DNA of 20,982 nucleotides from a virus (IMGVR_UViG_3300002835_012783:1-20982); one strand, 5' to 3'. Counted from the first letter of the stretch, positions 1-16,077 are shown. Notes: generated from the sequence alone by a model not told the origin. Program-made: numbers and translations.

Positions 1-566
1 ATGGTTACTACTTGACCTACATAATTAAGTAAATTTACACCAGTTGTAGTCCAATCTCTCCATCTTACGTTTTGATAGTTTATGAAACCAGGTACATTCC
101 CTCCAGCAGCAACTTGATAAAAAGTACATGGAATTATACTTCCGTTTTGATTTCTAACTTGCATTTCAAAACGAGGTTGAGCAATAGGTGGGTGACCTGG
201 GTCTTCTAAAACAACCGCATAACGATAAATAAATAACGCATTTTGGTTTGATACAACAAACGAGTAAGTTAAACTTTCTGCTTGTGCACCTACCTGACTA
301 TTACCTAAACGAGCTGACTGAGGAATTCCTGGTGGAGTTCTAGTCAAAGTCGGTACAATAGGATCTAAACCAGGAGTCATAATTGTATGACGACCATTTT
401 GAATGGTATTCGGATTGGTAATTGTTATTGGGCAACAAGTGCCAATTCCTCCTACCCAGTTTTGAAAACCGTTCATGGAAAAATCAGCATTTGGACAGTT
501 ACCACCAGGTTGTCCTAAGACATATCCCCATGTTAATAGGAATAGTAGAGTTAAAAAGCGTTTCAT
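1..566 (-). CDS. Secreted Bacteroidetes-type adhesin-like protein, N-terminal part (3' end outside window)
   Basis: The reading frame opens at ATG 566-564 and stays open for 188 codons to the window edge, so this is the N-terminal part of a longer protein. Residues 1-18 form a signal peptide (MKRFLTLLFLLTWGYVLG, then Q). The region around residues 100-188 has a pattern I recognise from the N-termini of large Bacteroidetes surface proteins: a beta-rich stretch (LTYSFVVSNQNALFIYRYAV), then PRFEMQV and VRWRDWTTTGVNL near residues 168-179. Such proteins often carry a C-terminal T9SS signal, which cannot be checked here. The start overlaps the TGA stop of the preceding gene (ATGA), indicating translational coupling in a secreted-protein operon. 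The function is unknown; a cell-surface or glycan-binding role is inference. Confidence 0.85.
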   Translation of the reverse strand, partial: MKRFLTLLFLLTWGYVLGQPGGNCPNADFSMNGFQNWVGGIGTCCPITITNPNTIQNGRHTIMTPGLDPIVPTLTRTPPGIPQSARLGNSQVGAQAESLTYSFVVSNQNALFIYRYAVVLEDPGHPPIAQPRFEMQVRNQNGSIIPCTFYQVAAGGNVPGFINYQNVRWRDWTTTGVNLLNYVGQVVT

Positions 567-1132
567 CGTAGTAGTGTTAATTGTCCAAGAATATTATCGT
601 AATATGGCTTCTTATTTTGAGTATAGTTAATACGATAAGTATATACACCTTGAGGGACTATTGTACCATTGTAGGTACCATCCCACACAAAGTAAGGATC
701 TTCAGACTGAAATAATTGAGTACCCCATCTGTCGTGTATAGTGACATAAAAGGAGGTAAATTCCCATTGCTCACCATAAATTGAAAAAGTTTCATTTAAT
801 CCATCTCCATTAATAGTAATACAGTTAGGGATATATAAAGTAAAGCAAGGACTAACGGTAACATACAATGCTCTGTAAGGGCCTTCACAATTAAATTCAC
901 TTATCTCTCTTACTTTGATGGCATAAGTTCTAGTTGTATCTTCAGGCCACTGTACACCAATTGTATTACCCGACTGGCCAATCAACATAGTATCAATATA
1001 CCATTCATAAGTTGAATTAGGATATCCTTCCACAGCATAATATTGGAAAGATGATGCCCTACATAAATCAACTCTCTGTTGACCGAATAGAGGACTAATT
1101 GCTAGCAATAATAAGAATACAAATCTAGTCAT
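563..1132 (-). CDS. Small secreted protein with Ig-like domain and gliding-motility/T9SS type B C-terminal domain (CHU_C)
   Basis: 189 residues. Residues 1-18 are a signal peptide (hydrophobic run FVFLLLLAI, cleavage near FGQ). Residues about 22-95 resemble an Ig/PKD-like fold with NSTYEWYID. Residues 100-189 match the gliding-motility-associated C-terminal domain: IPN (101-103), NGDGLNE (108-114), DRWG (134-137), WDG (150-152), PQGVYTY (160-166) and a final GQLTLLR. In Bacteroidetes this domain directs export and surface attachment through the type IX secretion system (type B signal). Host proteins with it are usually far larger; here it has one short domain in front. It overlaps the upstream gene by 8 bases and the downstream gene by 4. 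A surface-displayed protein made during infection is the simplest reading; the role is unknown. Confidence 0.9.
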   Translation of the reverse strand: MTRFVFLLLLAISPLFGQQRVDLCRASSFQYYAVEGYPNSTYEWYIDTMLIGQSGNTIGVQWPEDTTRTYAIKVREISEFNCEGPYRALYVTVSPCFTLYIPNCITINGDGLNETFSIYGEQWEFTSFYVTIHDRWGTQLFQSEDPYFVWDGTYNGTIVPQGVYTYRINYTQNKKPYYDNILGQLTLLR

Positions 1133-1667
1133 GGATAACTGGTGAAGTGTTTGGTAATGGGTAAACTGTAAAGGATGTACCTGCTGAGGTTGTACAACCT
1201 GCTATATTTGTGTAAGTGTAGGTTACGTTATATATACCTGGGTTGAGTGGATTAAATAATCCTCCTGAACCGTTTCCATTTACTATCCACGTACCTCCTG
1301 CTGGGAATGCTTGAAAATTAAATGCTGGTGAATCTTGACAAATATTTGCTATTGGTAGTACTTGAACAACGGGTTGCATGATTTCAATCAAACATACAAC
1401 AGGATTACCTACACATCCTTGAGAGTTGGTTTCTGTAACTGTTAAGGTATAAGTACCGTTTGCTTGCCCCCAGTTAATTGCTACCTGATTAGATGGAGAA
1501 TTGATTAAGGTTCCTCCTCCAGTTAATGACCAATTATAAGTAGAGCCTGGAGTGTTTTGAACCCAATAATTAATTGAATCACCAGCACATACTGTATCAG
1601 GGCAACTAAACTGAGCGCTTAAATTAAGGCTAAAAAATAAGGCTAATATTGATAGTAGGGATTTCAT
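1125..1667 (-). CDS. Secreted two-domain Ig/PKD-like protein
   Basis: 180 residues. A signal peptide covers residues 1-19 (MKSLLSILALFFSLNLSAQ). Two tandem Ig-like domains follow. The first, about residues 22-96, has the typical Bacteroidetes pattern VCAGDSINYWV, GSTYNWSLTGG, INWG and GTYTLTVTETNSQGC. The second, about 100-168, has ICQDSPAF, FPAGGTW, GLFNP and GIYNVTYTYTNIAGC. Paired cysteines (for example C22/C27, C85/C92, C110/C158) suit an exported, disulfide-containing protein. There is no CHU_C domain; the C-terminus is NTSPVIHD, similar to the end of the secreted protein at 2524-3123. It sits 2 bases after the lipoprotein gene and overlaps the following gene by 8 bases. Function unknown; adhesion or surface display is inference. 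Confidence 0.85.
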   Translation of the reverse strand: MKSLLSILALFFSLNLSAQFSCPDTVCAGDSINYWVQNTPGSTYNWSLTGGGTLINSPSNQVAINWGQANGTYTLTVTETNSQGCVGNPVVCLIEIMQPVVQVLPIANICQDSPAFNFQAFPAGGTWIVNGNGSGGLFNPLNPGIYNVTYTYTNIAGCTTSAGTSFTVYPLPNTSPVIHD

Positions 1668-1669
1668 AA

Positions 1670-2512
1670 TTAATTAGTTGTACAATTTACAAATTCGTAT
1701 CCAGTACCTGTCTTTTTCCAGATGATAAATACAAGCTCCATTTTGCTCATATCCCAGTTGCTGTTGTATTCGATAGTTCGAGCCCAATGATATACACCTC
1801 CAGCACTTAAACTGGTGAATACTTCTTCTCCAAATGCACCAGCTGCAATAGCTGATTTAGCTAGTACATGATGATGTATATGCGGGTTTTGAGTACTACC
1901 ATTTTGAGCAGCTTGAATTTCTTTGTATAGAAATAGAGCAGACATTGTATAAGTACCCGATAAATTATCTAGAGCCTTTACATATACATTTACATTTAAT
2001 TTACCAGCATTTTTACCAGCTCCTTGAGTTACATGAGTACCAATAGATAATTTAGGGGTTTGGTTGTTTTTATTTGCTATTTCACTTGGGATACCTGAGG
2101 TACTGGTACCGACAAAAGTTTCATTAACAAAGAAATTAGGTGTTCCTGTATATTGCCATTTAGCAGAAAATTCATCAACTAATGGCCCATTATCAGGTGT
2201 AGTTAGTGCATCGCTAATTTGTAAAGACATAGCCAATGCCCTGCCCTTATGATTAGCATACAGCTCTTCAAATCTTGTAACTCCCCAACCACCACAAGGA
2301 CCACACCAAGTAGCAGTAAACTTACCAAAGATTGAATTTTGCAAACTATCGATATAAACACACGACCCGTTGTCAATAACAGCATCTGGATTATAGTTAA
2401 CTGATTTAGGATCAGTACACCCTTTGACTACCGTTCCATCATCAACCAATAAGGTTGATTCTTGGCAAGCCATTAAAAATAAAGTTGTTAAAATAAATAG
2501 ATAGTGTTTCAT
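1670..2512 (-). CDS. Omp28-like thioredoxin-fold lipoprotein
   Basis: 280 residues. The N-terminus is a lipoprotein signal with lipobox LMAC (residues 13-16, Cys16 lipidated). Residues 31-53 hold one copy of the Bacteroidetes calcium-binding-like repeat GCTDPxxxNYNPxAxxDNGSCVY. From about residue 60 a thioredoxin-like fold follows, with ATWCGPC and the CxxC pair at Cys70/Cys73, as in Omp28-related outer-membrane proteins. The substrate cannot be told. The protein would be anchored in a membrane of the host envelope, possibly facing outward. It sits 11 bases after the upstream secreted gene and 2 bases before the next, so it is part of the same operon. A thiol-redox lipoprotein on a phage genome is unusual. 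Fold assignment is fairly sure; biological role is not. Confidence 0.85.
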   Translation of the reverse strand: MKHYLFILTTLFLMACQESTLLVDDGTVVKGCTDPKSVNYNPDAVIDNGSCVYIDSLQNSIFGKFTATWCGPCGGWGVTRFEELYANHKGRALAMSLQISDALTTPDNGPLVDEFSAKWQYTGTPNFFVNETFVGTSTSGIPSEIANKNNQTPKLSIGTHVTQGAGKNAGKLNVNVYVKALDNLSGTYTMSALFLYKEIQAAQNGSTQNPHIHHHVLAKSAIAAGAFGEEVFTSLSAGGVYHWARTIEYNSNWDMSKMELVFIIWKKTGTGYEFVNCTTN

Positions 2513-2523
2513 GTTGTTTAAGG

Positions 2524-3123
2524 TTAATTGTGAGATATGGGTGAAGTTGAGACTGTAGAACCGTTTATTGTACCATTAAATATATTAAAAGGAACAGTTG
2601 GACATCCATTAATGCCCCAACTACCCCATGTACCATCAGCACCCGCAGTTATTTGAATTAATAAATTCTGGGGAGTGCATTGCTGAGTGGCAATTAGCTG
2701 AAAGCAAAAAGACCAACTACAGTTTATCCCAAAATCTCCCCAATCATTTCCAGGGTTACCATCTACTGGTCCAGCAGGGCCTTCATAAAACCATCCAGGA
2801 CCTACTGTAATTCCTGTTGAGCTAGAAGTTACTGTATTTGCAACCCAAATCCATTGACCTGCATTAGAACAGTTAATTGGAGCTGCTGAAGGTATTACTG
2901 AAGTCCATCCAGGCCCTAAGTTAAGGTCAAATCCTTCTAACCAATTAGACCCAAATCCAGTACCATTCCATCCAGTCATTGTATAACATACTGTTACCAC
3001 TGTACCTGGAGAGTAGGTGTTGTTAGTTGGTTGAGGATTTAGAGTAAAGGATTGTTGACCCGCACATTGAGCGTTAATATGAAGGGAAAAAATAAAACCT
3101 AATAAAGTTAAAAGAACTTTCAT
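2524..3123 (-). CDS. Secreted protein of Bacteroidetes surface type, function unknown
   Basis: 199 residues. The signal peptide is residues 1-19 (MKVLLTLLGFIFSLHINAQ). The mature part is rich in Gly, Trp, Asn, Thr and Cys, with GTVVTVCYTMTGWNG, NWLEGFDLNLGPGW and GINCSWSFCFQL, giving a beta-rich exported protein. I recognise this general pattern from N-terminal regions of large Bacteroidetes surface proteins but cannot name a family. The C-terminus is STSPISHN, like the NTSPVIHD end of the protein at 1125-1667. It starts 5 bases after the stop of the kinase gene and is followed by the lipoprotein gene after 11 bases, so it is the first gene of the secreted cassette. No transmembrane segment is seen beyond the signal. 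Confidence 0.8.
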   Translation of the reverse strand: MKVLLTLLGFIFSLHINAQCAGQQSFTLNPQPTNNTYSPGTVVTVCYTMTGWNGTGFGSNWLEGFDLNLGPGWTSVIPSAAPINCSNAGQWIWVANTVTSSSTGITVGPGWFYEGPAGPVDGNPGNDWGDFGINCSWSFCFQLIATQQCTPQNLLIQITAGADGTWGSWGINGCPTVPFNIFNGTINGSTVSTSPISHN

Positions 3124-3128
3124 TTTTG

Positions 3129-3665
3129 TTATTTGTTATAAATATGTTGTAGGATGGCCTCTATACGTTCTTGAGTTGAGCCTTTAATTTCTTTATAACT
3201 CTTGATTTTATCTCTATACATTCGTAGAATTTGTTGAATAGTTTGATCTATCTGATTCCTATAGATAGGATCTGTAGTTCTAACTCCATTATCTTCAATT
3301 TCAACTCCTTCAGGAGAAATGTAGAAAATATAATCATACTCATTTAGTAGACATTGAGCATACATTTCAAATCCAGCTTTATCTATAATATTGATTGAAT
3401 TAGCATTTAAAGTAAACGCCATAACATCAATAACAGTTCTATCTGTGATTACATTGTCATACATTAATTCAGTACACCTTTCAGCCAAAAATATAGTTTG
3501 ACCTTTTAATGTTGAATCTGTATTAAGAGGAATACCTAAATCCCTAAGATATTTTGAACGTTCAGTAGCAAAATGATAATCTTTAAATTCAGGTAATTCC
3601 TTTAAGGCATTAACTAAAGTAGTTTTGCCAACACTTTGACTCCCTGTGAAACCTATACGGGCCAT
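3129..3665 (-). CDS. NadR-like P-loop ATPase/kinase (AAA_28 type)
   Basis: 178 residues. Walker A is GSQSVGKTT (residues 8-16). A Walker-B-like segment VITDRTVID lies at 72-80, and a lid-like GVRTTDPIYRNQI at 127-139 has the arginine expected in NadR-type nucleoside kinases. These features fit the AAA_28/NadR family, whose members phosphorylate nicotinamide riboside or related small molecules. Phages often carry such enzymes for NAD or nucleotide metabolism. Only the kinase domain is present; there is no adenylyltransferase or DNA-binding domain. The start codon overlaps the end of the endonuclease gene by 13 bases, and the first secreted-protein gene follows after 5 bases. The substrate is inferred; a general P-loop kinase is certain. 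Confidence 0.85.
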   Translation of the reverse strand: MARIGFTGSQSVGKTTLVNALKELPEFKDYHFATERSKYLRDLGIPLNTDSTLKGQTIFLAERCTELMYDNVITDRTVIDVMAFTLNANSINIIDKAGFEMYAQCLLNEYDYIFYISPEGVEIEDNGVRTTDPIYRNQIDQTIQQILRMYRDKIKSYKEIKGSTQERIEAILQHIYNK

Positions 3666-4402
3666 AATTTTTCTTTTAAAATGTTATTGATATTATTAAA
3701 ATCTTCATATGATATATCAATATATGAAATATTATTGGATAAACAAAACTGTTTTTTAATATTATCTCTATATTGTCTGCCTTTTAAACCCCCTGCTCTT
3801 TTTTCAAAGTAATCTCCCATTTTTTTATAATGTTGTTCTCCATGATATTCTATTATTAAATTTTTCTTAGGAATAAAAAAATCAAAAGGGAGATTTTTGT
3901 TAGTTTTAGGATTAATACAATTTTTAAATCTTTTTTCTCTTTGATATGAAATATTATTTTTTATTAAAAATTTTTCTATTTCATCCTCACCTTTAGAAAT
4001 ATTACAGTAAGGACAATTATTACCATTACCATGAGCTTGAGGACTTTGAGTAAATTCTCCATGTTTTTTACAAATAATTATAACTTTGAATTTAGTCCCA
4101 GGTCCATCTTGGATTTTTACCATTGAATAATCATATCTGTCTCCATGAACTTCTTTAAATTTTTCTATCCATTGTTCTTTTGTAAATTTTCTAGCACTTC
4201 TTACTCTATCACCCATACATGATAAACAACCCTGTCCAAATAAATGGTTATTAGGTTGTTGTTCAAATTCACCATGTTTGGGGCAAATCATTTTAACCTT
4301 AGTTACAGCGTTAACATAATTTACTAAAGAATAATCATAAAAATTATTATGTTTTTTAGAAGCTTTATTTATAAATTGTTCTTGTGTTAATTTAGCGGGC
4401 AT
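3653..4402 (-). CDS. Zinc-ribbon repeat endonuclease, PD-(D/E)XK / Vsr-like (probable free-standing homing endonuclease)
   Basis: 249 residues. Two copies of a module each have a zinc ribbon: C40-x2-H43...C59-x2-C62 and C111-x2-H114...C130-x2-C133, preceded by repeated HNNFYDYS / HGDRYDYS motifs. The C-terminal third (about 138-245) looks like a Vsr-related nuclease: EDEIEKFL (139-146), LPFDFFIP with D174, NLIIEYHGEQHY with E185 and H191, then RDNIKKQFC. Phage proteins of this architecture are usually free-standing homing or mobility endonucleases. The gene is very AT-rich and full of A/T homopolymers compared with its neighbours, which suits recent acquisition. It overlaps the kinase start by 13 bases. 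Upstream at 4403-4480 are two promoter-like elements. The target site is unknown. Confidence 0.8.
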   Translation of the reverse strand: MPAKLTQEQFINKASKKHNNFYDYSLVNYVNAVTKVKMICPKHGEFEQQPNNHLFGQGCLSCMGDRVRSARKFTKEQWIEKFKEVHGDRYDYSMVKIQDGPGTKFKVIIICKKHGEFTQSPQAHGNGNNCPYCNISKGEDEIEKFLIKNNISYQREKRFKNCINPKTNKNLPFDFFIPKKNLIIEYHGEQHYKKMGDYFEKRAGGLKGRQYRDNIKKQFCLSNNISYIDISYEDFNNINNILKEKLWPV

Positions 4403-4805: not shown

Positions 4806-5414
4806 TTATTTCCAAAATTTAATATAGTTATTTTTTAAAAATTTATCAAAACCATACAATTTTAAACGTTGCATGGTTAACATGACTATATTTTGATTTG
4901 TTTTAGCTACTGTTTGTTTATCTCCTGTTATACTCCAGGGTATAAAAAATACTTGATAAAGTTCCCATAACCAACTAGAGTTTTGAGAATTAAGATTATC
5001 ATAGGTATCTTTATTTATTTCTATGAATTTAATTTCATTTATTTTTTTAGCGAAATATCTTCTAAATTCTCCAATTTGATAATCTTGAGGAGTAGGTTGA
5101 GGAACTATGGGGTATGGAATATTTTTAGGGGCCAATGAAGGATTAATAACATTTAAATATTCTAAATTACCATAAGCCACCTCACTAGTATATACAGGAG
5201 TAAAATTAACATCAGAATGTAATTCTCCAGGTACATTAGGTAAATTAATAAGTTTTTCAACTGGTTTATCTTCTGGTGTTTTACCAGTGAATAATTCTCC
5301 TGTGTATAATTTATGATAATGTCCTTTATATACTTGACCTGTACTTTCTATAGCATATTCATTTCCGTTTGTGTACAGATTTGTTATAATTCTGTTTTTA
5401 GGGTAATAGCTCAT
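4806..5414 (-). CDS. Conserved-looking phage structural or baseplate-associated protein, function unknown
   Basis: 202 residues, no signal peptide or membrane segment. The N-terminus has YYPKNRIITNLYTNGNEYAI followed by YKGHYHKLYTGELFTGK, a pattern I associate with a hypothetical protein often found after the baseplate hub in environmental T4-like phages. The middle is Pro-rich (NIPYPIVPQPTPQDYQ) and the C-terminal half is predicted helical (FRRYFAKKINEIKFIEI, LTMQRLKLYGFDKFLKN). The start codon shares one base with the hub stop (TAATG), so it is translationally coupled to the hub. A terminator follows directly. A baseplate or tail-assembly role is inferred from position only. Confidence 0.65.
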   Translation of the reverse strand: MSYYPKNRIITNLYTNGNEYAIESTGQVYKGHYHKLYTGELFTGKTPEDKPVEKLINLPNVPGELHSDVNFTPVYTSEVAYGNLEYLNVINPSLAPKNIPYPIVPQPTPQDYQIGEFRRYFAKKINEIKFIEINKDTYDNLNSQNSSWLWELYQVFFIPWSITGDKQTVAKTNQNIVMLTMQRLKLYGFDKFLKNNYIKFWK

Positions 5415-8371
5415 TATGAATATGTTTTTTCTGATTTTTTAATAGCGGCCGTTGGTGGTGAAATGGTTCTATTCAAGTAAGCAATAGGATCAAGTCGTGG
5501 AAGATCACTATCTTTGCCTCCTACTCTTATTTCATAATGAAGATGAACACCAGTACTAGGATACCCTTTACTGCCCATTTCAGCCACAACCTCTCCCCTT
5601 GATACGGGTGTGCCATCTTTAGCTGCCCCCTTCCCAATTCTAATATCATTATGTCCTAAGAAATGATAATTATTTGTTCCATTTTCTTTTATTATAACAA
5701 CTTGATCTCCAAATGATGCGGGGCCAAACCCACCATTAGAAATAATACCATCAACAGGTGAAATGATGCGAGTTCCTTTACTCCCGGCAATATCTACACC
5801 ATAATGGTTTTTAACATTTCCATTTATGTTTCTGTTAGGCTTAGGTAAAGAAGTTACTGTTACCTGGGAGCCTTTTACAGTAGGTACCCAATTTGGATAA
5901 ACACCAAATGTAAAATCTGTAAAATTAGAATTTACTATTCCTGCTTTAATTAAAGTATTATTGACAGCTTGTTGAACTGTTTGGGGGGGTGGGGGAGAAT
6001 ATGTTTTTAAAGATCCTGAAGCTTCAGGAACTGACATTGTTTCTATTTTAGTAGTCCATTGTTTTGTATCAACTGTATGGCTAATGGCTTTAACTATTAG
6101 AGCTATTTGTCCTTCATCATAAGTTAAGGGTAATACTCCTTTAGACATTTTAAATTTTTCAAATAATCTAATACCACTAATACCATCTAAAGTCATATTA
6201 AGATTATATGGAATAAAAAATGGAGCATCAATATTTCCATCTTTTGAATATTTTTGTGAAAACAATGTATTTACCTGAGAGTTAGCATTTTTTAGATAAT
6301 CTATATTTTCATCAGTAAATTGTTTTTTACCATAAACTTGGGTAAATATACTTTTAAATTTTCCTATATCAAGAGGAGCTTCTTCTTCCTTATACTTTTC
6401 TCCGTTTGATTTTTTAGAGGATTTTTCTAAGATAATTCTATCTGTTAATCCTTTATTATACTTTTCAAAAGAATAAGCATTTTGAGATATATTAGTACTA
6501 TTAACTTGAGCTCCAACTGAGATAGCAGTTGAAAATTGATTTGATATTTCTGAGTTTAACTGAATATCTTGTACAAAACTTCCTTCTACTCCCGGTTTTA
6601 CTCCAAATACATTTAATGTTGTAAATTTATCTGGTTCTCTGCTAATATTAAAATCACTCCCGTTGTATGTCATAGGGGTTTGGTCGTATATTTTGATAGT
6701 TAAATTATCTCTATCAGCATAAACAGTGAAATTATTTATTCCTCCTAAACATACATTAACATCATCCATTATTTGTTGGAGTAATTTTACTAGAGTAGCT
6801 ACTCCATCTTCTTCTTTTGTTAGAGAATTTAATACCCCAGCTAAATATTCTATGTTAAGAAGAATATGTCCCATTTTACCAACAAAAACATTAGCATTTC
6901 CCGTTTTAAAATTAGGAAATTCATTTCTAGCATTAGTCCCATTAATAGAGCCATTTAATATTGGGGCAATATTGTAATAACCGGTAACTCCCCCTCTTGT
7001 TGGGTTAAGAACAACATCATTTATAATACTCCCAGTAGCTAATGAATCTATTATTTCATTTAAATTTTGATGAACAGGAATTAAACATATTCTAGGGTCA
7101 GAGGAAAATTGGTTTGGAGGGGAGAAAAAATAATTTTTATCAACTTCGGTAGTGGTACTATTAGTTAATCCAAAATAATCATAATTAAAATCAAATTTTA
7201 TTTGAGGTGAATCTCCATTATATAATCCACATTCTGTTTCAATAAAATACAATAAAGAGGCTAGAGTTATATGAACACTATAAGTTGTAGATACCCTATA
7301 AGAAAAACCTAAATTAAAATACTCACGTATTTGAGATGCTGGGTATTTGTAGATATTTTTTTCGTATTTAGGTTCTACTTGGCCATTGATAGTAGGTATA
7401 TTCCTGTTAAATACATGATTGGTTATAGTTTTTGTACCTTGTGACTCATATATCTCAAATAACCATTTATTAATTTTGGATGATTCTTTTTGAGCTACAA
7501 TTGCAGGTACTTCCTCAGTAGATTCTGTTGAAGATTCTGTGATACTCTCTGAGGGATTATCAACCACATTCATTTTTAATGATTCTATAATAGAACCATA
7601 AGCTATCAATTCTAAATTAATGTCATAACTTCCATCTCTATTAAAAGACCAACTAAATTTAGAGACAGGTCCTATGAAACCTTCATAATTTCCTTTATAT
7701 CTTTCTTTTTCAATGTTAATTTGATTTTGAATAACATATTGGTCTACTAAAAGTCTAACTTCACCTGATGGAGCAGGTCTAGTTGTAGTTCCCCTCAAAA
7801 AACTTTCTAATGGCGCGGACTGAAATTTATCCCATTGTTGTAAATTTCCCCCATTATCAAGATAAACAGTGTGACCAAATTCAAGCAATATTGAATAACC
7901 TGGTCTCATATAGAGATAATCAATTAAGGCAAATTGTTCTCTACTGTATGCTTTTATTTTAATAGTGGCTTTAGCTAAAGCTCCATTATTATAGTAACTA
8001 ACATCAGCTGATGTTATACCAGGCATAGGGACAAATCCTCTTTCTCCTATTCCTCCCCAACCATATTCTCCATTTAAGGCACTGTTTGAAAAGTTTATAC
8101 CTGATTGTAGATTACCTGATTCATTTGATGCTCCACCAAATAATATAAAATTTTTAGCTAAATTAGCTCCAATTAAATTTGCATCTATACCTAATTTTGC
8201 TATAATACTACCATCAACATCTACAGAACTAGCTAATCTTAACCAAGGGGTTTTAGTAGTGACCCATTTTAATGTATTAGGATCAATATTAGTTTTACCT
8301 AAAGCTTGTTGCCTTCTTTCAATTTGAGTTTTAACCCAGGACTGGAATGGTTCTCCAATAATATTGGCCAT
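5414..8371 (-). CDS. Baseplate hub protein with C-terminal M23 peptidase
   Basis: 985 residues. The N-terminal part has hub-like motifs: PMPGITSADVSYYNNGALAKA (116-136), YLYMRPGYSILLEFG (152-166) and a repeat-type ending GPVSKFSWSFNRDGSYD with GSIIESLK (234-266). A Ser/Glu linker lies at 271-290. The C-terminal about 150 residues form an M23 (lysostaphin-like) metallopeptidase: zinc ligands H856 and D860 in HYGVD, H943 and H945 in HLHYE, and H907 in LGHND. M23 enzymes cut peptidoglycan cross-links, so the hub would open the cell wall during tail contraction, the job done in T4 by lysozyme on gp5. The gene follows the LysM-like gene after 1 base and is coupled to the next gene. Hub identity is from context and motifs; the peptidase is certain. 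Confidence 0.85.
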   Translation of the reverse strand: MANIIGEPFQSWVKTQIERRQQALGKTNIDPNTLKWVTTKTPWLRLASSVDVDGSIIAKLGIDANLIGANLAKNFILFGGASNESGNLQSGINFSNSALNGEYGWGGIGERGFVPMPGITSADVSYYNNGALAKATIKIKAYSREQFALIDYLYMRPGYSILLEFGHTVYLDNGGNLQQWDKFQSAPLESFLRGTTTRPAPSGEVRLLVDQYVIQNQINIEKERYKGNYEGFIGPVSKFSWSFNRDGSYDINLELIAYGSIIESLKMNVVDNPSESITESSTESTEEVPAIVAQKESSKINKWLFEIYESQGTKTITNHVFNRNIPTINGQVEPKYEKNIYKYPASQIREYFNLGFSYRVSTTYSVHITLASLLYFIETECGLYNGDSPQIKFDFNYDYFGLTNSTTTEVDKNYFFSPPNQFSSDPRICLIPVHQNLNEIIDSLATGSIINDVVLNPTRGGVTGYYNIAPILNGSINGTNARNEFPNFKTGNANVFVGKMGHILLNIEYLAGVLNSLTKEEDGVATLVKLLQQIMDDVNVCLGGINNFTVYADRDNLTIKIYDQTPMTYNGSDFNISREPDKFTTLNVFGVKPGVEGSFVQDIQLNSEISNQFSTAISVGAQVNSTNISQNAYSFEKYNKGLTDRIILEKSSKKSNGEKYKEEEAPLDIGKFKSIFTQVYGKKQFTDENIDYLKNANSQVNTLFSQKYSKDGNIDAPFFIPYNLNMTLDGISGIRLFEKFKMSKGVLPLTYDEGQIALIVKAISHTVDTKQWTTKIETMSVPEASGSLKTYSPPPPQTVQQAVNNTLIKAGIVNSNFTDFTFGVYPNWVPTVKGSQVTVTSLPKPNRNINGNVKNHYGVDIAGSKGTRIISPVDGIISNGGFGPASFGDQVVIIKENGTNNYHFLGHNDIRIGKGAAKDGTPVSRGEVVAEMGSKGYPSTGVHLHYEIRVGGKDSDLPRLDPIAYLNRTISPPTAAIKKSEKTYS

Positions 8372-8372
8372 A

Positions 8373-8696
8373 TTATAAACTATTTAGAGTGTTAAAACTA
8401 GCGATAATATCGCTTACATTTACAGGTATACGTATTTGTATGCCTGGAGTGAGGAATAACGAATCCCCGCTTATTTTCTGGGGATTTGCGGCTGCTATTA
8501 TCCAATATAGAGTAACATCATTATAATATTGATTTGCTAATAGATCTAGCCTGTCCCCAAATCCTGTTATAACATAAATGTCACTAGACCTAAGAGGTAT
8601 TTCAGGATATTTAGTTGTGTCATAATACCGTTTACCTATGGGTCTGATGACATCATCCGTTGTTCTAGATTCTTGTATGTTTTGGTAACGATTCAT
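8373..8696 (-). CDS. LysM-like baseplate protein (gp53 / P2 gpX type)
   Basis: 107 residues. Residues about 38-92 form a LysM-like domain: SDIYVITGFGDRLDLLANQYY, then YWIIAAANP and LTPGIQIRIP. This is the form used in phage baseplates, where a short LysM protein binds the hub or wedge (T4 gp53, P2 gpX), rather than a cell-wall-binding enzyme. It lies directly before the hub gene with a 1-base gap. A late-type promoter ends only 2 bases before its ATG, so its mRNA may have almost no leader. The next in-frame Met is not close, so the start is kept. Confidence 0.8.
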   Translation of the reverse strand: MNRYQNIQESRTTDDVIRPIGKRYYDTTKYPEIPLRSSDIYVITGFGDRLDLLANQYYNDVTLYWIIAAANPQKISGDSLFLTPGIQIRIPVNVSDIIASFNTLNSL

Positions 8697-8698
8697 GT

Positions 8699-8713
8699 TT
8701 TATTATATGTATG
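8699..8713 (-). promoter_or_regulatory. Late-type promoter motif before the LysM-like gene
   Basis: An exact copy of CATACATATAATAAA on the minus strand. It lies 7 bases after a terminator hairpin and 2 bases before ATG 8696. Confidence 0.7.
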
Positions 8714-8720
8714 GTAAGAA

Positions 8721-8744
8721 AAAGCTTGCTGAGAGGCAAGCTTT
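8721..8744 (-). terminator. Intrinsic terminator after the gene at 8785-10989 (second hairpin of a pair)
   Basis: A perfect 9-bp stem AAAGCTTGC / GCAAGCTTT with a 6-base loop is followed on the minus strand by TTCTTACC. The T-tract is short but the stem itself ends in TTT. Confidence 0.75.
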
Positions 8745-8747
8745 CGG

Positions 8748-8768
8748 TCCATGAATACTCTTCATGGA
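8748..8768 (-). terminator. Upstream hairpin of the tandem pair after the gene at 8785-10989
   Basis: A perfect 8-bp stem TCCATGAA / TTCATGGA with a 5-base loop lies 16 bases after the upstream stop codon. It has no T-tract of its own, so it may protect the 3' end of the mRNA or assist the following terminator. Confidence 0.5.
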
Positions 8769-8784
8769 GGGGTTCATATTTTAT

Positions 8785-10989
8785 TTATACTAAATTTACT
8801 GGGATACCATTAACTGGTAAATTAGAGATAACAGAAGTATTATTTCCTGATATTGGTGGGTCTAAGACTTCGTTTCTTATATTTGTTGAATTGTTGTAAT
8901 AATTATAATGGCTGTATCCGTTTTCATTACCAGTGCTTTTAGAATCTCCTCCATTTCTTAAACTTATAAATGGACTACCTTTTCCTGATTTATCAGTTGC
9001 TCTTCTTGGTAAGAAATCTTGAATTGGAGTAAATCCTAAATCTACATTTATTATATGAGGTAATTCTTTAACTGAGTTATCAGATTCAGTTTTACTGTTA
9101 CCTATATTGATTTCCCAAGGAGATTGTTCAGGAATAGTGTAATTTAATGAAGTTATAATACCTGGGGTTTCAAACAGATAAGCTCCCATTGTCATTTTAT
9201 ATAAGGTACCTCTCATAAAACCTGCTTCTGTATAGTCAGGGGCTAGGGTGGAGGCTAGATAGTTTAGTTTATAATACATGGGCATTAGCTCTTGTTTAGA
9301 TTGAGCGGCCACCGTAAAACTCATTTTAACATCTCTAGTGAAACCTTCATAATTATATAATGTATTACCCCTACCCACATAATTTATTGAATTCCATTTT
9401 GGAGTATATGAATCACTAAAATTATTAATGAATGCCCTAAAATGCATGTAAAAAGCATTTGCTGAGGTGTCATTTTTGTAGGCTGCTATATAAAAAGTAG
9501 CTAAGTCATTTAAACTATTAGGGTCATTTAATGTTGTAGCACCTCCGGAGGCCGCATCTAATTTTTTATATGAACCTTCATATATAGGTTCAGCTGTTAT
9601 CTTATCAAGAGCATTTTTTATATTATTTTCTCCACCAAACCCACCAAGGCCCCCTAATGTATAGTCTGATCTATCTTTAGTTCTAGAACCTGGGTCTCCT
9701 AAACTTACTCTATTCTCTATATTGTTAATTAAATAATTTGGGGAGAAAGATAAAATAGTTTTATTTTTTTCAATATCTAAATCTTTTCTAAAATCATCAA
9801 CTAATATTGAATTCCCACCTTGAATTGGTGTTTTACTATTGATCCCACCCTGAGTAAGTGCTGCTGTATTAGGATATAGTTGATTATAGTTAGAAGGAGT
9901 AAAGGTAGATAAAGTTTGATTAGCTGGGGATTGTTTAAAACCAAATGGGTTATTGGGGGTTTGGTTACCTGTATCTATATCAAACCCTAAAATAGAATTA
10001 TCTCCTCTAGATGAAATATTAGGGTTAAGGGATTGTTTTAAGAATATTGATGTATTACTAACTCCTAATTTACGAGTGATATTATCATATTCTAAAGAAT
10101 CTTTGTATGATCTTCTAGCATTAGTAGATTTAAAATAACCATCAGATTCTAAATTTTTCTTAATTTCAGGATTATTTACTCCTGTTCTTTCACTAGCAAA
10201 TCTAATATTAGTATTGTTTACTCCTAAAACAGAACCAGGACCTCCACCATAATTTAAAATACTACCCAAATTTTGAGTTGTATCAATAGGTATTCTATCT
10301 CTTTTTGGTACATTTACAAATGGTAATCCTTCAATTTTAACTCTATGAAGTTGAAGAAGTCTGTTATAATATTTACCTACTACTAAATTGGATGTATCTT
10401 CTTCTTTTTTCCTTTTCATCACCTCGGAATAAGTATTTATTCCTCCAGCCCCTAAAATGTCTTCTAATGTTGAATCGCCAGTATAAGCTCCTGTAGGTTT
10501 AAGTGGATTTAAACCTTGTTTATTTAAGTGAGTTCCTGTCCATCCTTGAACCGCTACTTGAGCCAGTGTTGAAGTTGGTAAATAAATACCTTCATTGACA
10601 GCTCCTCCTCCATATCCCACCCCGTAAGAGGCTTCAGTTTTAACTGCTGTTCTTGATAGTAAATTTTGATTAGCGGTAAATATTAAACCACGAGGTGATT
10701 TTAAATCAAAAAAATATTGAGTTAAACGCGATACATCTTTACCAGCATTAATAGGGGCCAATAAACCTCCCCTCACCAACGCATCAGGAAAACGCGCGGC
10801 TAAAACATCAAAAGGGGGATTATCTTCAGCTCCTATAGAATATCCAATTTGACCTGTGTTAGGATCATATCCTGATTGTAGGCCCGGGATTGGAGTAGTA
10901 ATATAGGGTTGATTACTAGATCCTCCTTTTAATTTATCTCCTCCGTATTTGAGATTTAAAAGGTTGGTTTTTAGGTTTATTAAAGCCAT
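8785..10989 (-). CDS. Large tail/baseplate structural protein
   Basis: 734 residues. I cannot name the family with certainty. The N-terminal half is rich in Gly, Asn and Ser with loops (GGGAVNEGIYLP, NYGGGPGSVLG) and no signal peptide. The C-terminal part, about 500-680, has a pattern seen in tail-tube initiation or baseplate proteins: FYMHFRAFINNFSD, GFTRDVKMSFTVAAQSKQEL, YKLNYLASTLAPDY, LYKMTMGAYLFETPGIITSL and SPWEINI. Its place between tape measure and baseplate genes supports a role at the tail tip, such as connecting tube and baseplate. It starts 9 bases after the 94-residue protein gene, with no promoter of its own, and ends at a tandem hairpin. Confidence 0.75.
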   Translation of the reverse strand: MALINLKTNLLNLKYGGDKLKGGSSNQPYITTPIPGLQSGYDPNTGQIGYSIGAEDNPPFDVLAARFPDALVRGGLLAPINAGKDVSRLTQYFFDLKSPRGLIFTANQNLLSRTAVKTEASYGVGYGGGAVNEGIYLPTSTLAQVAVQGWTGTHLNKQGLNPLKPTGAYTGDSTLEDILGAGGINTYSEVMKRKKEEDTSNLVVGKYYNRLLQLHRVKIEGLPFVNVPKRDRIPIDTTQNLGSILNYGGGPGSVLGVNNTNIRFASERTGVNNPEIKKNLESDGYFKSTNARRSYKDSLEYDNITRKLGVSNTSIFLKQSLNPNISSRGDNSILGFDIDTGNQTPNNPFGFKQSPANQTLSTFTPSNYNQLYPNTAALTQGGINSKTPIQGGNSILVDDFRKDLDIEKNKTILSFSPNYLINNIENRVSLGDPGSRTKDRSDYTLGGLGGFGGENNIKNALDKITAEPIYEGSYKKLDAASGGATTLNDPNSLNDLATFYIAAYKNDTSANAFYMHFRAFINNFSDSYTPKWNSINYVGRGNTLYNYEGFTRDVKMSFTVAAQSKQELMPMYYKLNYLASTLAPDYTEAGFMRGTLYKMTMGAYLFETPGIITSLNYTIPEQSPWEINIGNSKTESDNSVKELPHIINVDLGFTPIQDFLPRRATDKSGKGSPFISLRNGGDSKSTGNENGYSHYNYYNNSTNIRNEVLDPPISGNNTSVISNLPVNGIPVNLV

Positions 10990-10998
10990 GTTATATTC

Positions 10999-11283
10999 TT
11001 ACCCTGGAAGATTCAATAAGTATTGGTCAGAGTTTGGAATTACACCATTATTATAATCAAGTTGAGAAGGTTGAGGGAGAATGTTTGGGGTCCCATCAAC
11101 ATATCCTTGATACGCAGCATTGACTGTAGATTGGTTTGCTCCATTAACAGAGTAGCTAACTTGTGAACCATCAGCGTGAAGTTTAGACTGATTGGTAGCT
11201 AAAATATTGATAGCTGGGGTAGAACCATTTCCTGTAATAGAGTATGGGCTTCCTGTTTGAGTTAATTTGTTGAGTAGTGACAT
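10999..11283 (-). CDS. Small structural protein of unknown function
   Basis: 94 residues, polar and rich in Asn, Ser, Gln and Gly, without signal peptide or membrane segment. No family is recognised. It follows the tape measure gene and is preceded by a late-type promoter, so it heads the transcription unit with the large structural protein at 8785-10989. A baseplate or tail accessory role is inferred from position. Confidence 0.65.
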   Translation of the reverse strand: MSLLNKLTQTGSPYSITGNGSTPAINILATNQSKLHADGSQVSYSVNGANQSTVNAAYQGYVDGTPNILPQPSQLDYNNGVIPNSDQYLLNLPG

Positions 11284-11300
11284 AGTTTCTAGTTTTAATG

Positions 11301-11315
11301 TTTATTATATGTATG
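11301..11315 (-). promoter_or_regulatory. Late-type promoter motif before the 94-residue protein gene
   Basis: An exact copy of CATACATATAATAAA on the minus strand. It begins immediately after the TAA stop of the tape measure gene and ends 17 bases before ATG 11283. No terminator separates them, so read-through is likely. Confidence 0.7.
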
Positions 11316-13769
11316 TTAGGAGCCAGTACGATACTCAGCTAATGCTAAAGTTTTTCCTACTAAGTTACCATCTATTGATACATTTCCTTCTTTATTTAGG
11401 ATTGAAGTTAAAAGTTGATTCATTCTGTCTAATCGTTCAGCTAATGGTTGTATATTAATAGAGGAAGACATAATTGAAGTAGATTCTTTACTTTTTCCTA
11501 TTTTATTAGATATTCCTGGGGCTGCCACTAAATCATCATTTGGAGATAATTCAAATAATCCCCCTTCTTTAGTTGATACTGTGGTTTTTCCTTTGGCAGG
11601 GGATAACATATCACCAGCTTTATTAGCTTGATTTTTATTTTTTTCTAGATAGGCCATTCCTGCTCCGGCAGCGGCTAAAGCTATAGCTGCCCCCACTCCA
11701 AAAGTTAAAGAACTATTTAACACTAAAGCTGCTATACCAGCAGCTGTTAGTAATCCAACAATCACTCCCATAACATCACCAAAACTTTTACCCCAATTTA
11801 TAAGCCATCCTAATGGTTTTAACATAAGCCCTACAATACTAAAAATTGATGATAAAAGATCAAAAGCGGGCATTATTGCTTCTGCTACAGTCACAAATAT
11901 TTCTCTTAATTTTTCAACAGAAGCATTCATTCTGTCTTGAATTGAGGCTTGATTTTCTAAATCCTCAATACTTTTTTCTTTTAACATCTTTTGGGCTCCT
12001 TCTATCCCATATTGTTCTGTTAAACTATTTAATAATTCTTTTCTTTTCTCAACATCTTCTTTAGATACATCTTTCAGTTGGTCCTGAATAAATAGAGTTT
12101 TAGCTAATTCTTCTCGATTCATTCCTACTGACTTGGCTATAGCCTCTTGTTGTAAACGATTCATTTTACCAAACTCAGCAGAAGAGCCTAAATTTTTATT
12201 TATTTCTTCAGCAAGTCCTGCTACATCATTAGTTAAAGCATAATATCGAGCTTGTTCTAGATTTAATTGGCGGCCAGTTAATAATTCTGCTTCTAATTCT
12301 GATTCAATGGATGATTGGAAATTTAGTAAACTTTCTGCTATTGCATCTATCTTAGACATTTCTAAACCTAAAGATTTAGCTACAGCAACTGCCTCTGCTA
12401 TCAATGATGGGTTTTTTCCTAAAGAAAGGGTGGTGGCGGCAGAAACATCTTTTATTTCTTTTAAAACTTCTTTTTCATTTAATGCTACCCCTAATCTAGT
12501 TGAAGATATTTTAGCTTGAGCTAATACTTCTCCTGTGGCATCTTCTAAACTTTTATTAGTACCTAATGTTAATTTATATATACCCGCTAATTCTTCATTA
12601 GTTAGTCCTGCGGTTGTTCTGAATTTAGTTATAGTGGCTAAATCCTCTTTATTTAGCATAACATTAGTGCCTAATGTTTTATTTATCGCTAATAGAGATT
12701 CTTGCATTCCTTTAGTAGTAACAAATATATCACCGCTAGCATTGGCTGCTGAATTTAACTCAGAACTCATAAAAGAAGCGTCCTGGTAGGACATGTTCAT
12801 ACCTTTTGCTAGGTCTCCTGTTAATCCATCTACTAATTTGAAGGCATCTACTAATTCTTTTAATAGAGCTAATGGTCCTAAAGCTTTAGCTAAAGCTGGG
12901 CCTAGGGATTTAAGACCCGCCATTAAAGGAGTCATAGATTTCTCTGCTGCTTGGGGGATACCCATAGCCATAGCTTTTGACTTTGCTGCTGTATCCTCTA
13001 AAAGATTTCCATGTTCATCAACTAATCCTAATCTTGTTTTTAATTCAGCACTAATTCCTTTTCCTGTTTTTAAGCTTTCAATTTCTTTATCAGTTAAACC
13101 TTTAGTTATACCATATATTTTTTGATTGTATATGGCTGTTTCTTGAGCGGCCTTTGATGCGTCTTGAAAAGCTGAAGAAAATTTACCTAAACCAGGAATA
13201 GCATTAGATATAGCATCTAACCCGGTAAAAAGTTTTATTCCTGCGTCTTTTTTAATTTTTTCTTGTTCTTTTCTGACACCCTGGAGGGCTTCAAAGAATT
13301 TTCTTTCTTCTTCAGCTTGGCCTTTAATTTCCTCTAATTTATCCCCTTCAATTCTCCCTGATTGGATAGCTACTTGTAAATTTTGAAATTGAAGCTTAGC
13401 TTTTTTTTCTAGTTTATCTAAAGTTTTACCTTCAATTAAAACTCCTTGAGAATTTTCATATACTATTTCTTGAGCTATTTTAGATATTGAACTTAAAGCA
13501 TTTTTAGCACTAGATAATTCTGTATTTTGTTTGCTTAGCTCGGCTACACTGTCTTTAAATGATTTATAAATAAAACTTAATTCACTATTTAAATCATCCG
13601 CGGCATTTACTACATCCCTGAATAAAGTTTCAAATTTTTCTAATTCAGCAGTGTTAGCTTTAAGATCTCTAAGTATACTTTGATAATATGCTTGTTCTCT
13701 AGCATTCAATTTAGCTAAAGTTCCTTCTATCTGTTTTATTTTATCAGCTAATTCTTTTGCAGTTGCCAT
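11316..13769 (-). CDS. Tail tape measure protein
   Basis: 817 residues. The N-terminal about 240 residues are Lys/Glu-rich coiled coil (KELADKIKQIEGTLAKLN onward). A central helical region follows, with Ala-rich segments. A hydrophobic stretch lies near residues 640-710 (SIVGLMLKPLGWLINW, VIVGLLTAAGIAALVL, GVGAAIALAAAGAGMAYL), typical of tape measures that insert into membranes during ejection. Length, composition and position right after the overlapping chaperone genes support the call. The family rule of about 0.15 nm per residue gives a tail near 120 nm; this is an estimate. It has its own late-type promoter 7 bases before the ATG. Confidence 0.9.
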   Translation of the reverse strand: MATAKELADKIKQIEGTLAKLNAREQAYYQSILRDLKANTAELEKFETLFRDVVNAADDLNSELSFIYKSFKDSVAELSKQNTELSSAKNALSSISKIAQEIVYENSQGVLIEGKTLDKLEKKAKLQFQNLQVAIQSGRIEGDKLEEIKGQAEEERKFFEALQGVRKEQEKIKKDAGIKLFTGLDAISNAIPGLGKFSSAFQDASKAAQETAIYNQKIYGITKGLTDKEIESLKTGKGISAELKTRLGLVDEHGNLLEDTAAKSKAMAMGIPQAAEKSMTPLMAGLKSLGPALAKALGPLALLKELVDAFKLVDGLTGDLAKGMNMSYQDASFMSSELNSAANASGDIFVTTKGMQESLLAINKTLGTNVMLNKEDLATITKFRTTAGLTNEELAGIYKLTLGTNKSLEDATGEVLAQAKISSTRLGVALNEKEVLKEIKDVSAATTLSLGKNPSLIAEAVAVAKSLGLEMSKIDAIAESLLNFQSSIESELEAELLTGRQLNLEQARYYALTNDVAGLAEEINKNLGSSAEFGKMNRLQQEAIAKSVGMNREELAKTLFIQDQLKDVSKEDVEKRKELLNSLTEQYGIEGAQKMLKEKSIEDLENQASIQDRMNASVEKLREIFVTVAEAIMPAFDLLSSIFSIVGLMLKPLGWLINWGKSFGDVMGVIVGLLTAAGIAALVLNSSLTFGVGAAIALAAAGAGMAYLEKNKNQANKAGDMLSPAKGKTTVSTKEGGLFELSPNDDLVAAPGISNKIGKSKESTSIMSSSINIQPLAERLDRMNQLLTSILNKEGNVSIDGNLVGKTLALAEYRTGS

Positions 13770-13776
13770 TCTGTAT

Positions 13777-13791
13777 TTTATTATATGTATG
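13777..13791 (-). promoter_or_regulatory. Late-type promoter motif before the tape measure gene
   Basis: An exact copy of CATACATATAATAAA on the minus strand. It starts 4 bases after the terminator stem at 13796-13816 and ends 7 bases before ATG 13769. Confidence 0.75.
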
Positions 13792-13795
13792 GAAA

Positions 13796-13816
13796 AAGCC
13801 CACTTTTGGTGGGCTT
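13796..13816 (-). terminator. Intrinsic terminator after the chaperone genes
   Basis: A perfect 8-bp stem AAGCCCAC / GTGGGCTT with a 5-base loop runs into a T-tract on the minus strand (GGGCTTTTTCC). It overlaps the TAA stop of the chaperone's second frame. Confidence 0.9.
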
Positions 13817-14186
13817 ATTTCTTCATACTAGTAGAATATGTTGGTTTTTTAGCACTTCTCATAAATTCAGGAACATTAACATTTCCTTGGGAATCTATAA
13901 TAGTGGTCGTGTCTTTACCTTTGGATGCTTTTTCGTATTCTTGGGCCTCCTTATCATAAAAGGATTTTAGTTCATGGAATGTAAAATTTCTTAACCATAT
14001 AGGCATGTGATAGATAGTTTCCCAATCATATCCTCCTTTACCATGAAAAACAATTTCATGGATTTGTTTAAATAAATTTTTACGTGTTTGGGGTGCTGTC
14101 TCCAAACTCAGGCCAAAAAAATTCAATCCCAACTGGGATATTGACTCTATTGTCACTGTTGTTGGGAAAAAAAGTAAGATCAACAT
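13815..14186 (-). CDS. Tail assembly chaperone, second frame (GT-like), probably made by frameshift from the upstream gene
   Basis: The open frame has 123 codons, but its first 107 bases overlap the gp26-like gene in another frame. The meaningful part starts near residue 22 (NFFGLSLETAPQ) and continues TRKNLFKQIHEIVFHGKGGYDW, MPIWLRNFTFHELKSFYD, with a charged C-terminus. There is no convincing start: ATG 14186 begins with hydrophobic residues that are a by-product of the other frame. Position directly before the tape measure and overlap with the preceding gene match the G/GT chaperone arrangement of tailed phages. A +1 (or -2) shift on the T7 run at 14115-14121 would give a fused protein of about 337 residues. 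An internal start is the alternative. Confidence 0.75.
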   Translation of the reverse strand: MLILLFFPTTVTIESISQLGLNFFGLSLETAPQTRKNLFKQIHEIVFHGKGGYDWETIYHMPIWLRNFTFHELKSFYDKEAQEYEKASKGKDTTTIIDSQGNVNVPEFMRSAKKPTYSTSMKK

Positions 14187-14829
14187 CTGGCTGAACTTTT
14201 CTGATGTAATCTCTAAGTGCTCGAGAATCTCGAGCTAAGAGATAATTATCTACAAATTCTCGAATTGTTTTCTTTTCTCGATCTCCATCAACTGATGTAA
14301 TAATATACTTTAAACGAGTAGTTAATTCTGGTGTTGCTTCTTTATTGATTTTCTTTAATCCTTCAAGTTCACGTTCAATATCTCTTTCATCTTTATGAGA
14401 TAAGATTTTGAATGTAATGGAGGTATTTGTTGTAGGTAATGTATAAGAAAATTCATTTACTCCTTTAGTAAATAAACTTTCATCCAGTGGTTTATTCTCA
14501 ATTTGAGTTAAATCAACTGTATGTTCCTCTCCATTATAAGTAAATGTGTAATTTCCTCCATAACCCAAAATACGAGCTGCTACCATTATAGCGTTTTTAT
14601 CACCCACAATTAAATCATCATAATTAACGGGAGAAACAATGAGAGCCTGCATTAACTTGTCCAATACGACACCCTTTTGGATATATGACTGGTTGGTTAG
14701 AATATCCTCGTGTTTTGCGGTCATATAACTCATTTCAATTTTACCTGATGATAAGATATTATCTTCAGGGTAGAGTAAACCTTTTGATGGTAATTCAACT
14801 GTTTCAGTTGGTAACTTTAATTCTGCCAT
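14080..14829 (-). CDS. T4 gp26-like baseplate/tail assembly protein (chaperone G analogue)
   Basis: 249 residues. The N-terminal half matches the T4-type baseplate assembly family (T4_baseplate in Pfam, by memory): LPSKGLLYPED (13-23), IEMSYMTAKHEDILTN (31-46), KGVVLDKLMQALI (52-64) and LIVGDKNAIMVAARILGYG (73-91). It ends in GIEFFWPEFGDSTPNT. The last 11 codons follow a T7 run where the second frame may be entered. Position before the tape measure suits a tail assembly chaperone that holds the tape measure while the tube forms. A late-type promoter variant ends 18 bases before the ATG. Confidence 0.85.
   Translation of the reverse strand: MAELKLPTETVELPSKGLLYPEDNILSSGKIEMSYMTAKHEDILTNQSYIQKGVVLDKLMQALIVSPVNYDDLIVGDKNAIMVAARILGYGGNYTFTYNGEEHTVDLTQIENKPLDESLFTKGVNEFSYTLPTTNTSITFKILSHKDERDIERELEGLKKINKEATPELTTRLKYIITSVDGDREKKTIREFVDNYLLARDSRALRDYIRKVQPDVDLTFFPNNSDNRVNIPVGIEFFWPEFGDSTPNT
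14113..14124 (-). other. Probable programmed frameshift site
   Basis: On the minus strand the bases are GAATTTTTTTGG, read in the gp26-like frame as GAA TTT TTT TGG. The second frame reads AAT TTT TTT GGC. A Phe-tRNA in the P site on TTT can re-pair with the next TTT, moving the ribosome +1 (equivalent to -2 in frame). A second T7 run followed by CCC lies at 14167-14173 in the same overlap and is an alternative site. A one-base homopolymer error in the assembly would have the same look. Confidence 0.55.
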
Positions 14830-14847
14830 AGACTATTTTTATTATGT

Positions 14848-14862
14848 TCTATTATATGTATG
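14848..14862 (-). promoter_or_regulatory. Late-type promoter motif before the gp26-like gene
   Basis: The minus strand reads CATACATATAATAGA, one base from the consensus. It lies 24 bases after the terminator at 14887-14908 and ends 18 bases before ATG 14829. Confidence 0.7.
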
Positions 14863-14886
14863 TACGATATGAAAAAGAAATAAAAA

Positions 14887-14908
14887 AGCCAAACATTTCT
14901 GTTTGGCT
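14887..14908 (-). terminator. Intrinsic terminator after the three small tagged genes
   Basis: A perfect 8-bp stem AGCCAAAC / GTTTGGCT with a 6-base loop is followed on the minus strand by TTTTTTA. It lies 22 bases after the stop of the gene at 14931-15299. Confidence 0.9.
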
Positions 14909-14930
14909 CTTTATTAAATGTTAGTTGTTT

Positions 14931-15299
14931 TTAAAAATCATCATCATCATCCTCATCATCATCCTCATTAAATTCTTCATCATCTCTGAATGAATCATAT
15001 ATATCGTCTTCTGTACTCGAACTAAAGTTTTCGTATGTTAATTCACCATTAGTTAATTTAACTAGCATATCAATTACATCATCTGGTTGGTTTTTAACCA
15101 TTATATCCCAATAATCTCCAACCATCTTATCATCCATTGTCCCACCAGTTATTTTTGATAGTATATTAGTTATAAAATCAGGTTGATTTTCAACTAAATA
15201 AGTAAATGACTTTTTAACAAGATCCTCAACAGGATTTGATTCATTCATAACTTCAGAGATCTCCTCTCTGATTAGTTTTCTTAGTTGATTTAGTTTCAT
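14931..15299 (-). CDS. Small acidic protein with MKLxxLRxLIxEE N-terminus
   Basis: 122 residues, no known family. The first 20 residues (MKLNQLRKLIREEISEVMNE) are nearly the same as in the next two upstream genes. The middle has two similar halves of a short unit: LVENQPDFITNILSKITGGT and MVKNQPDDVIDMLVKLTNGE, an internal duplication of about 40 residues. The C-terminus is an acidic tail (DDEEFNEDDDEDDDDDF). It starts 2 bases after the upstream stop, so it shares an mRNA with the gene at 15302-15571. A virion-targeting role for the N-terminus is only a hypothesis. Confidence 0.7.
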   Translation of the reverse strand: MKLNQLRKLIREEISEVMNESNPVEDLVKKSFTYLVENQPDFITNILSKITGGTMDDKMVGDYWDIMVKNQPDDVIDMLVKLTNGELTYENFSSSTEDDIYDSFRDDEEFNEDDDEDDDDDF

Positions 15300-15301
15300 A
15301 G

Positions 15302-15571: not shown

Positions 15572-15584
15572 AGTTTTTGTTTTT

Positions 15585-15605
15585 ATAAATATACGAATAA
15601 TATTT
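15585..15605 (-). promoter_or_regulatory. Class-2 promoter-like element before the gene at 15302-15571
   Basis: The minus strand has AAATATTATT, then CGT, then ATATTTAT, with the same spacing as the other two copies. The -7-like TATATTTA is present, but the TTTG expected 20 bases upstream is absent. It overlaps the TAA stop of the upstream gene. Confidence 0.5.
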
Positions 15606-16042: not shown

Positions 16043-16045
16043 GAT

Positions 16046-16077
16046 ATAAATATAATAATAATATTTTAGATAGCCAA
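16046..16077 (-). promoter_or_regulatory. Class-2 (host-sigma-like) promoter before the gene at 15605-16042
   Basis: The minus strand has TTTG, 20 bases, then TATATTTA, the same arrangement and spacing as at 4745-4776, including GGCT after TTTG. It contains AAATATTATT-N3-ATATTTAT at 16046-16066. It starts at the stop codon of the tube gene and ends 3 bases before ATG 16042. Confidence 0.6.

Follow-up and report, generated by a model that had tools for sequence, protein, structure and literature searches.

A conserved module of exported, adhesin-like proteins in phages of probable Bacteroidota hosts and its possible display on the infected cell

The window analyzed here is the whole of the virus record IMGVR_UViG_3300002835_012783, 20,982 bases in full. 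At one end it carries five adjacent genes for exported proteins, and our results indicate that these are not an unrelated collection: three of them (A, B and C) form a conserved module, to which two accessory genes (one for an Omp28-like lipoprotein, and D) are added. The whole is best explained, with moderate confidence on our part, if the phage used the Sec and type IX secretion systems (T9SS for the latter) of its host to place an adhesin-like complex on the infected cell. That the phage encodes a surface display of some kind appears quite probable, and that the display serves to mask receptors is a tentative proposal. What was computed comprises gene structure, domains, homology, operon conservation, collinearity of fused and split forms, and selection. 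The five genes and their main features are as follows.

3..566 (188 aa), minus strand: gene D, truncated by the end of the contig; encodes the N-terminal part of a probable PKD-CHU_C adhesin
563..1132, minus strand: gene C, a 189-aa exported Ig_7-like and CHU_C protein, with the only T9SS sorting domain in the window
605..832, minus strand: CHU_C / TIGR04131 type-B T9SS sorting domain, within gene C
1125..1667, minus strand: gene B, a 180-aa exported protein with PKD and Ig-like domains (weak matches) and C-terminal SPVIHD
1670..2512 (280 aa), minus strand: Omp28-like lipoprotein with lipobox-like MACQ, motif GCTDPKSVNYNPDAVIDNGSC, thioredoxin-like WCGPC and an Omp28 domain
1703..2176, minus strand: Omp28 domain PF11551 (E 3e-12)
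2524..3123, minus strand: gene A, a 199-aa exported protein with a beta-sandwich model (adhesin/pilin-like), ending in SPISHN
2527..2547, minus strand: conserved C-terminal TSPISHN of A; across the family the pattern is PI[SNQT]HN-stop, with close variants

Spacings of 11, 2, -8 and -4 bases bear out a preliminary description of this DNA, which had reported five adjacent, tightly spaced genes, all starting with a signal peptide or lipobox. D is only the N-terminus of a longer protein. Export signals, judged by a heuristic test and not by SignalP, were found in 5 out of 5, in none of the other 19 open reading frames (ORFs) of the window, and in 2 out of 630 upstream ORFs of the tail-gene relatives. 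The four non-lipoproteins have NAQ, SAQ, FGQ and LGQ where cleavage is likely, i.e., A or G before the cut and Q after it, the Q-rule that has been described as Bacteroidetes-specific (PMC5837995), while the Omp28-like protein has the lipobox-like ..MACQ. Among signal-bearing A, B, C and fused proteins, 147 out of 164 show [AGS]Q in the signal-peptide region, as compared with 465 out of 2717 ORFs that have no signal. These sequences strongly indicate export through the Sec pathway of the host, using its signal peptidase I, and one product would be a lipoprotein.

The Ig-like, Omp28-like and T9SS-type domains that had been claimed for the five proteins were confirmed as CHU_C, Omp28 and weak PKD/Ig matches, except that a T9SS sorting domain is present on one gene only and that D is incomplete. 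This sorting domain, in C, scores 60.1 bits against PF13585 (E 2e-16, cut-off 27) and 51.5 bits against TIGR04131 (E 9e-14, cut-off 35). With a C-terminal sorting domain above the curated cut-offs, a predicted N-terminal Sec signal peptide and a Q-rule residue, C has the features of T9SS type-B cargo. Genes A and B have no such sorting domain. The domain search found no domain in gene A (2524-3123) or gene D (3-566), and no SprB repeats in the window proteins.

The conservation of A-B-C was examined in viral relatives of A, found on 28 contigs at first and later on 122 by pattern-based searches, which missed distant relatives. Among 93 A genes (the window's included), 70 stand alone and 23 are fused. 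Of the 70 viral loci with a stand-alone A, 64 have B and C, in this order, downstream on the strand of A, with gaps that are usually 3-20 and 0-3 bases. In the remaining 23, A opens a single secreted protein of 505-688 aa. Each one tested has CHU_C at its end, and most of the 23 are collinear with A-B-C. This is best illustrated by the fused protein of locus L018, to which A aligns at 1-191 (E 2e-55), B at 280-433 (1e-26) and C at 436-602 (2e-22), and in which the cut points between the three parts are domain borders. Because A, B and C together equal the single A-PKD-Ig-Ig7-CHU_C protein of other phages, they probably build the same rod by non-covalent association, and it is from the fused forms that we infer a complex. 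An AlphaFold model of a fused protein reached a predicted template modelling score of 0.43, and domain packing is unreadable from it. All three genes are under purifying selection, the median ratio of nonsynonymous to synonymous substitution rates (dN/dS) being 0.16 for A, 0.14 for B and 0.20 for C, as compared with 0.10 for the tail tube and 0.23 for gp26.

Two variations on the module were seen. A secreted protein of 402-414 aa lies between A and B, i.e., in the place that the Omp28-like gene has in the window, in L005 (1868-3088), L004, L200 and L201; that of L005 has PKD and a type A sorting domain. When L218 is compared with L229, L231, L256 and L262, C is 56-59% identical and A and B are 78-85% identical, and it is possible that the C subunit alone was swapped.

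A and B are otherwise unrelated in sequence, and nearly all complete copies of both (in the window and L200-L263) end in PIxHN or a close variant, e.g., GPINHN or SPIQHN; the SPVIHD of the window's B (1128-1151) is such a variant. Of 2956 other ORFs in the loci covered (those of 100 aa or more), none ends in HN, and in the fused proteins of L018, L021 and L025 an ITHN sequence remains at the A-to-B border. PIxHN could be a docking tail. It would be tempting to go further and regard A-B-C as a multi-subunit T9SS cargo, A and B crossing the translocon docked on C via this shared tail, but this idea is speculative and we consider it doubtful.

The preliminary description had held that recurrent linkage to phage genes would support a viral function, and such linkage was found. 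The tail tube gene lies directly upstream of A in 14 out of the 70 stand-alone loci, several of which have gp26-type hub genes after C. Furthermore, a T4-type portal is encoded on 12 out of 16 contigs with A-B-C, the fused form or D, and in none of 14 control genomes. The place beside sheath and tube genes would be explained if A-B-C joined the virion, either coating particles at lysis or forming a tail accessory; Ig-like domains decorate many phage virions. However, tails assemble in the cytoplasm, all three subunits keep Q-rule Sec signal peptides, and C keeps its sorting domain under purifying selection. Because every subunit carries an export signal, virion incorporation is the least likely of the roles first suggested (coating of the cell, altered adhesion or gliding, presence on the virion), and we regard it as very unlikely.

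Where the module came from is suggested by its bacterial relatives. A was considered as a virus-only family, since a pattern scan of 84,980 genomes gave none, but this was rejected when a profile search found the A domain encoded in 74 out of 395 Bacteroidia genomes, within longer proteins. There it lies near the N-terminus of adhesin-like proteins, and in the two that were readable whole (L354 and L355; 614 and 621 aa) SprB repeats and CHU_C come after it. The bacterial matches include no stand-alone A of phage size; their shortest open frame, of 223 aa, looks broken. Among 50,697 phage records only three, all unannotated and metagenomic, have A or C, and beyond these three the named phage records gave no A, C or Omp28 match. 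The AlphaFold model of A is good (predicted local distance difference test score 88); it has no PDB fold match below E 1e-3, and the sequence has no significant PDB match. Among viral folds, the model has one strong match only, to a GEVED-domain protein of Virus NIOZ-UU157.

A tree built from 92 A domains separates 72 out of 75 phage rows from every one of the 17 bacterial rows (support 100/98); the other three (L026, L028 and L118) nest among the bacteria, which means that capture took place more than once. L118 (LR756502.1) is a 642-kb uncultured phage that encodes at 11512-16524 a protein of 1670 aa with an A domain, 14 SprB repeats, PKD and CHU_C, to all appearances a gliding-adhesin-like protein on a huge phage.

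The accessory genes have histories of their own. The Omp28 domain scores 47.2 bits against a Pfam cut-off of 34.9, but only 32.3 bits against NCBIfam NF033782 (cut-off 150), which places the protein as Omp28-like and outside that subfamily. Its gene has 89.8% nucleotide identity to that of L030, and since the tail proteins there are only 22-55% identical, it appears to move between phages. In L030 and L034 it lies between the baseplate-hub region and the DNA polymerase, gp32 and recombinase genes, so that the phage linkage extends to it; in L032 and L035 it is found elsewhere. Full-length relatives in Flavobacteriales chromosomes are 45-50% identical, and the lipoprotein was apparently captured from this order. 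The motif GCTDPxxxNYNPxAxxDxGSC is common to the Omp28-like protein (window 2360-2422) and the fused proteins of L018 and L025. Gene D matches the first part of a protein of 1347 aa in L443 and L444 with 95% amino-acid and 84.5% nucleotide identity (the latter over window 1-497); that protein has ten PKD domains and CHU_C. The window's sheath has no match in these two contigs, which are possibly incomplete, and D was probably exchanged recently between different phages. Taken together, the phage surface genes seem to derive from host adhesins and lipoproteins.

The host relatives of A and of the Omp28-like protein, the uneven guanine-cytosine (GC) content along the window, and a junction at 3123/3129 that none of the contigs found spans would all suit chance host cargo without viral function, or an assembly chimera joined near 3100. 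The preliminary description had named such a chimera, or confinement of the genes to host chromosomes, as what would speak against its reading. The chimera was rejected since relatives of A and Omp28 adjoin phage genes in other contigs, although the junction itself lies on no other contig, and relatives of the genes are present on many other phage contigs. Moreover, the separation of the phage rows in the tree, the 64 conserved operons, the low dN/dS, the adjacency of A to tail genes in independent contigs and the T4-type portals all stand against chance cargo. We consider this explanation highly improbable for the window, and for the gene family it is already contradicted.

Within the window, every convincing gene lies on the minus strand. 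As the preliminary description had it, the five genes lie downstream of phage tail and accessory genes on that strand; a small gene, an HNH endonuclease and a thymidylate-kinase-like gene stand, in transcription order, between the tail cluster and gene A.

4806..20914, minus strand: myovirus tail and baseplate cluster (sheath, tube, gp26-like, tape measure, gp53-like, M23-peptidase hub)
3653..4402, minus strand: homing-type HNH endonuclease, upstream neighbour; a mobile element near the insertion site
3129..3665, minus strand: thymidylate-kinase-like AAA_28 phage gene, upstream neighbour (context)

The thymidylate-kinase and HNH genes (window 3255-4458) are paired in other phages too (L375, L380 and L381). 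A low-complexity protein at 18664-20025, with abundant TASYA/SATT repeats and marked positive GC skew, is perhaps a fibre-like tail component. By its sheath, the nearest cultured phage is Flavobacterium phage immuto (53.6% identity across the whole protein), whose tail gene order is that of the window. Together with the domains, the Q-rule and the Omp28 relatives, this suggests that the host belongs to the Bacteroidota.

We suggest that a phage of such a host carries an adhesin-display cassette, whose products would be exported by the host as described above. C, and complete D, would pass through the host T9SS by their type-B sorting domains and be anchored by host barrels of the PorP/SprF type; type-B cargo is known to bind PorP/SprF (PMC9143113). 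PorP/SprF genes were found in 4 out of 4 Bacteroidota genomes tested, with 3-14 copies each, and in 0 out of 18 phage records tested, so host anchors would be used. Type A sorting domains were found in 8 out of the same number of phage records tested (18), immuto among them. The infected cell would be coated, probably late, because the cassette lies on the same strand as the tail gene cluster and, in relatives, inside that cluster. T9SS export of A and B, the timing of expression and the function are all proposals of this kind. The coat might mask, or compete with, the T9SS-exported gliding adhesins to which flavophages adsorb, resulting in superinfection exclusion or in avoidance of re-adsorption by progeny. 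SprB and RemA are possible phage receptors, a mutation in GldM makes cells resistant to phage (PMC13288928), and the receptors of F. columnare phages are likely to be the gliding machinery (PMC7345892); for these reasons, receptor masking or competition is ranked first among the purposes, with altered adhesion next and virion decoration as unlikely.

Several points weigh against this account. The identity of the host is known only indirectly. Since A and B lack a sorting domain, they would have to travel with C for their crossing of the outer membrane to be accounted for. The late position suits blocked re-adsorption better than classical superinfection exclusion, which acts early. Also, most tail-gene relatives have no secreted gene downstream of the hub; thus the cassette is accessory, inserted where tail genes give way to replication genes, and we rejected the idea that it is a core feature of this tail-gene lineage.

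The same display could instead change how the infected cell behaves. As an adhesin, it would affect gliding, aggregation or the attachment to particles or algae, and lysis would then take place where new hosts are dense. The adhesin domains (PKD, CHU_C) would fit, as would the weak resemblance of the AlphaFold model of A to fibrillar adhesin and pilin domains, the SprB repeats in LR756502, and the C-type lectin and the cohesin + Por_Secre_tail protein of immuto. However, no ligand or binding site was identifiable, and a place in the late cluster leaves little time for altered behaviour. We consider this somewhat unlikely, and below receptor masking.

Phage-encoded T9SS cargo is already known, and a type-B three-gene module was not found described in the literature searched, which left out most subscription papers and all preprints; the same holds for the split operon, the tail-cluster position and the C-terminal PIxHN motif of A and B. 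The closest precedent is Cryophage, for which superinfection exclusion or inter-strain competition was suggested (Bellas et al. 2020, PMC7468147). It likewise has sorting-domain proteins on a genuine phage genome of a Bacteroidetes phage, but there the domains are of type A and belong to enzymes (endoglucanase, GH39) and to a PA14 protein, all in variable islands, whereas the window has a type B domain in an adhesin module, as a conserved three-gene operon that is partly inside the tail cluster. In the crAss-BACON gut phages (PMC6949934), phage ORFs close to head genes carry T9SS sorting domains, but in a BACON context, and the part of the source consulted describes no A-B-C-type module. Phages of Porphyromonas gingivalis (PMC10367356) encode Q-rule secreted proteins, processed by host signal peptidase I and proposed to modify host outer membranes, but these are five genes of unknown function and the text does not mention T9SS. 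The SprB-type type-B adhesins of gliding Bacteroidota (PMC9143113) share CHU_C/TIGR04131 sorting and likely PorP/SprF anchoring; unlike the minimal phage form, usually split into three genes, they are host chromosomal, much larger and one polypeptide. Flavobacterium phage vB_FspM_immuto (NC_055915) has, besides its related tail, a secreted run (gp012-gp019) that includes a Por_Secre_tail protein, but the proteins differ (C-type lectin, cohesin), the genome place is another, and no A or CHU_C was detected. This run (L117, NC_055915.1, 9935-16409) makes immuto a practical model phage.

Little is understood of how Bacteroidota phages use receptors and control superinfection, and their adsorption is linked to gliding and to type IX secretion. 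A-B-C is a widespread, compact module under purifying selection that apparently reuses the same secretion route, and it offers a directly testable gene set. Redecoration of the infected cell is a plausible candidate for a real viral strategy. In addition, the pairs of split and fused forms are natural material on whether T9SS exports complexes with members that lack a sorting domain. If this were true of A-B-C, phages would have evolved a way for proteins to hitchhike through type IX secretion, by splitting one adhesin into three exported pieces.

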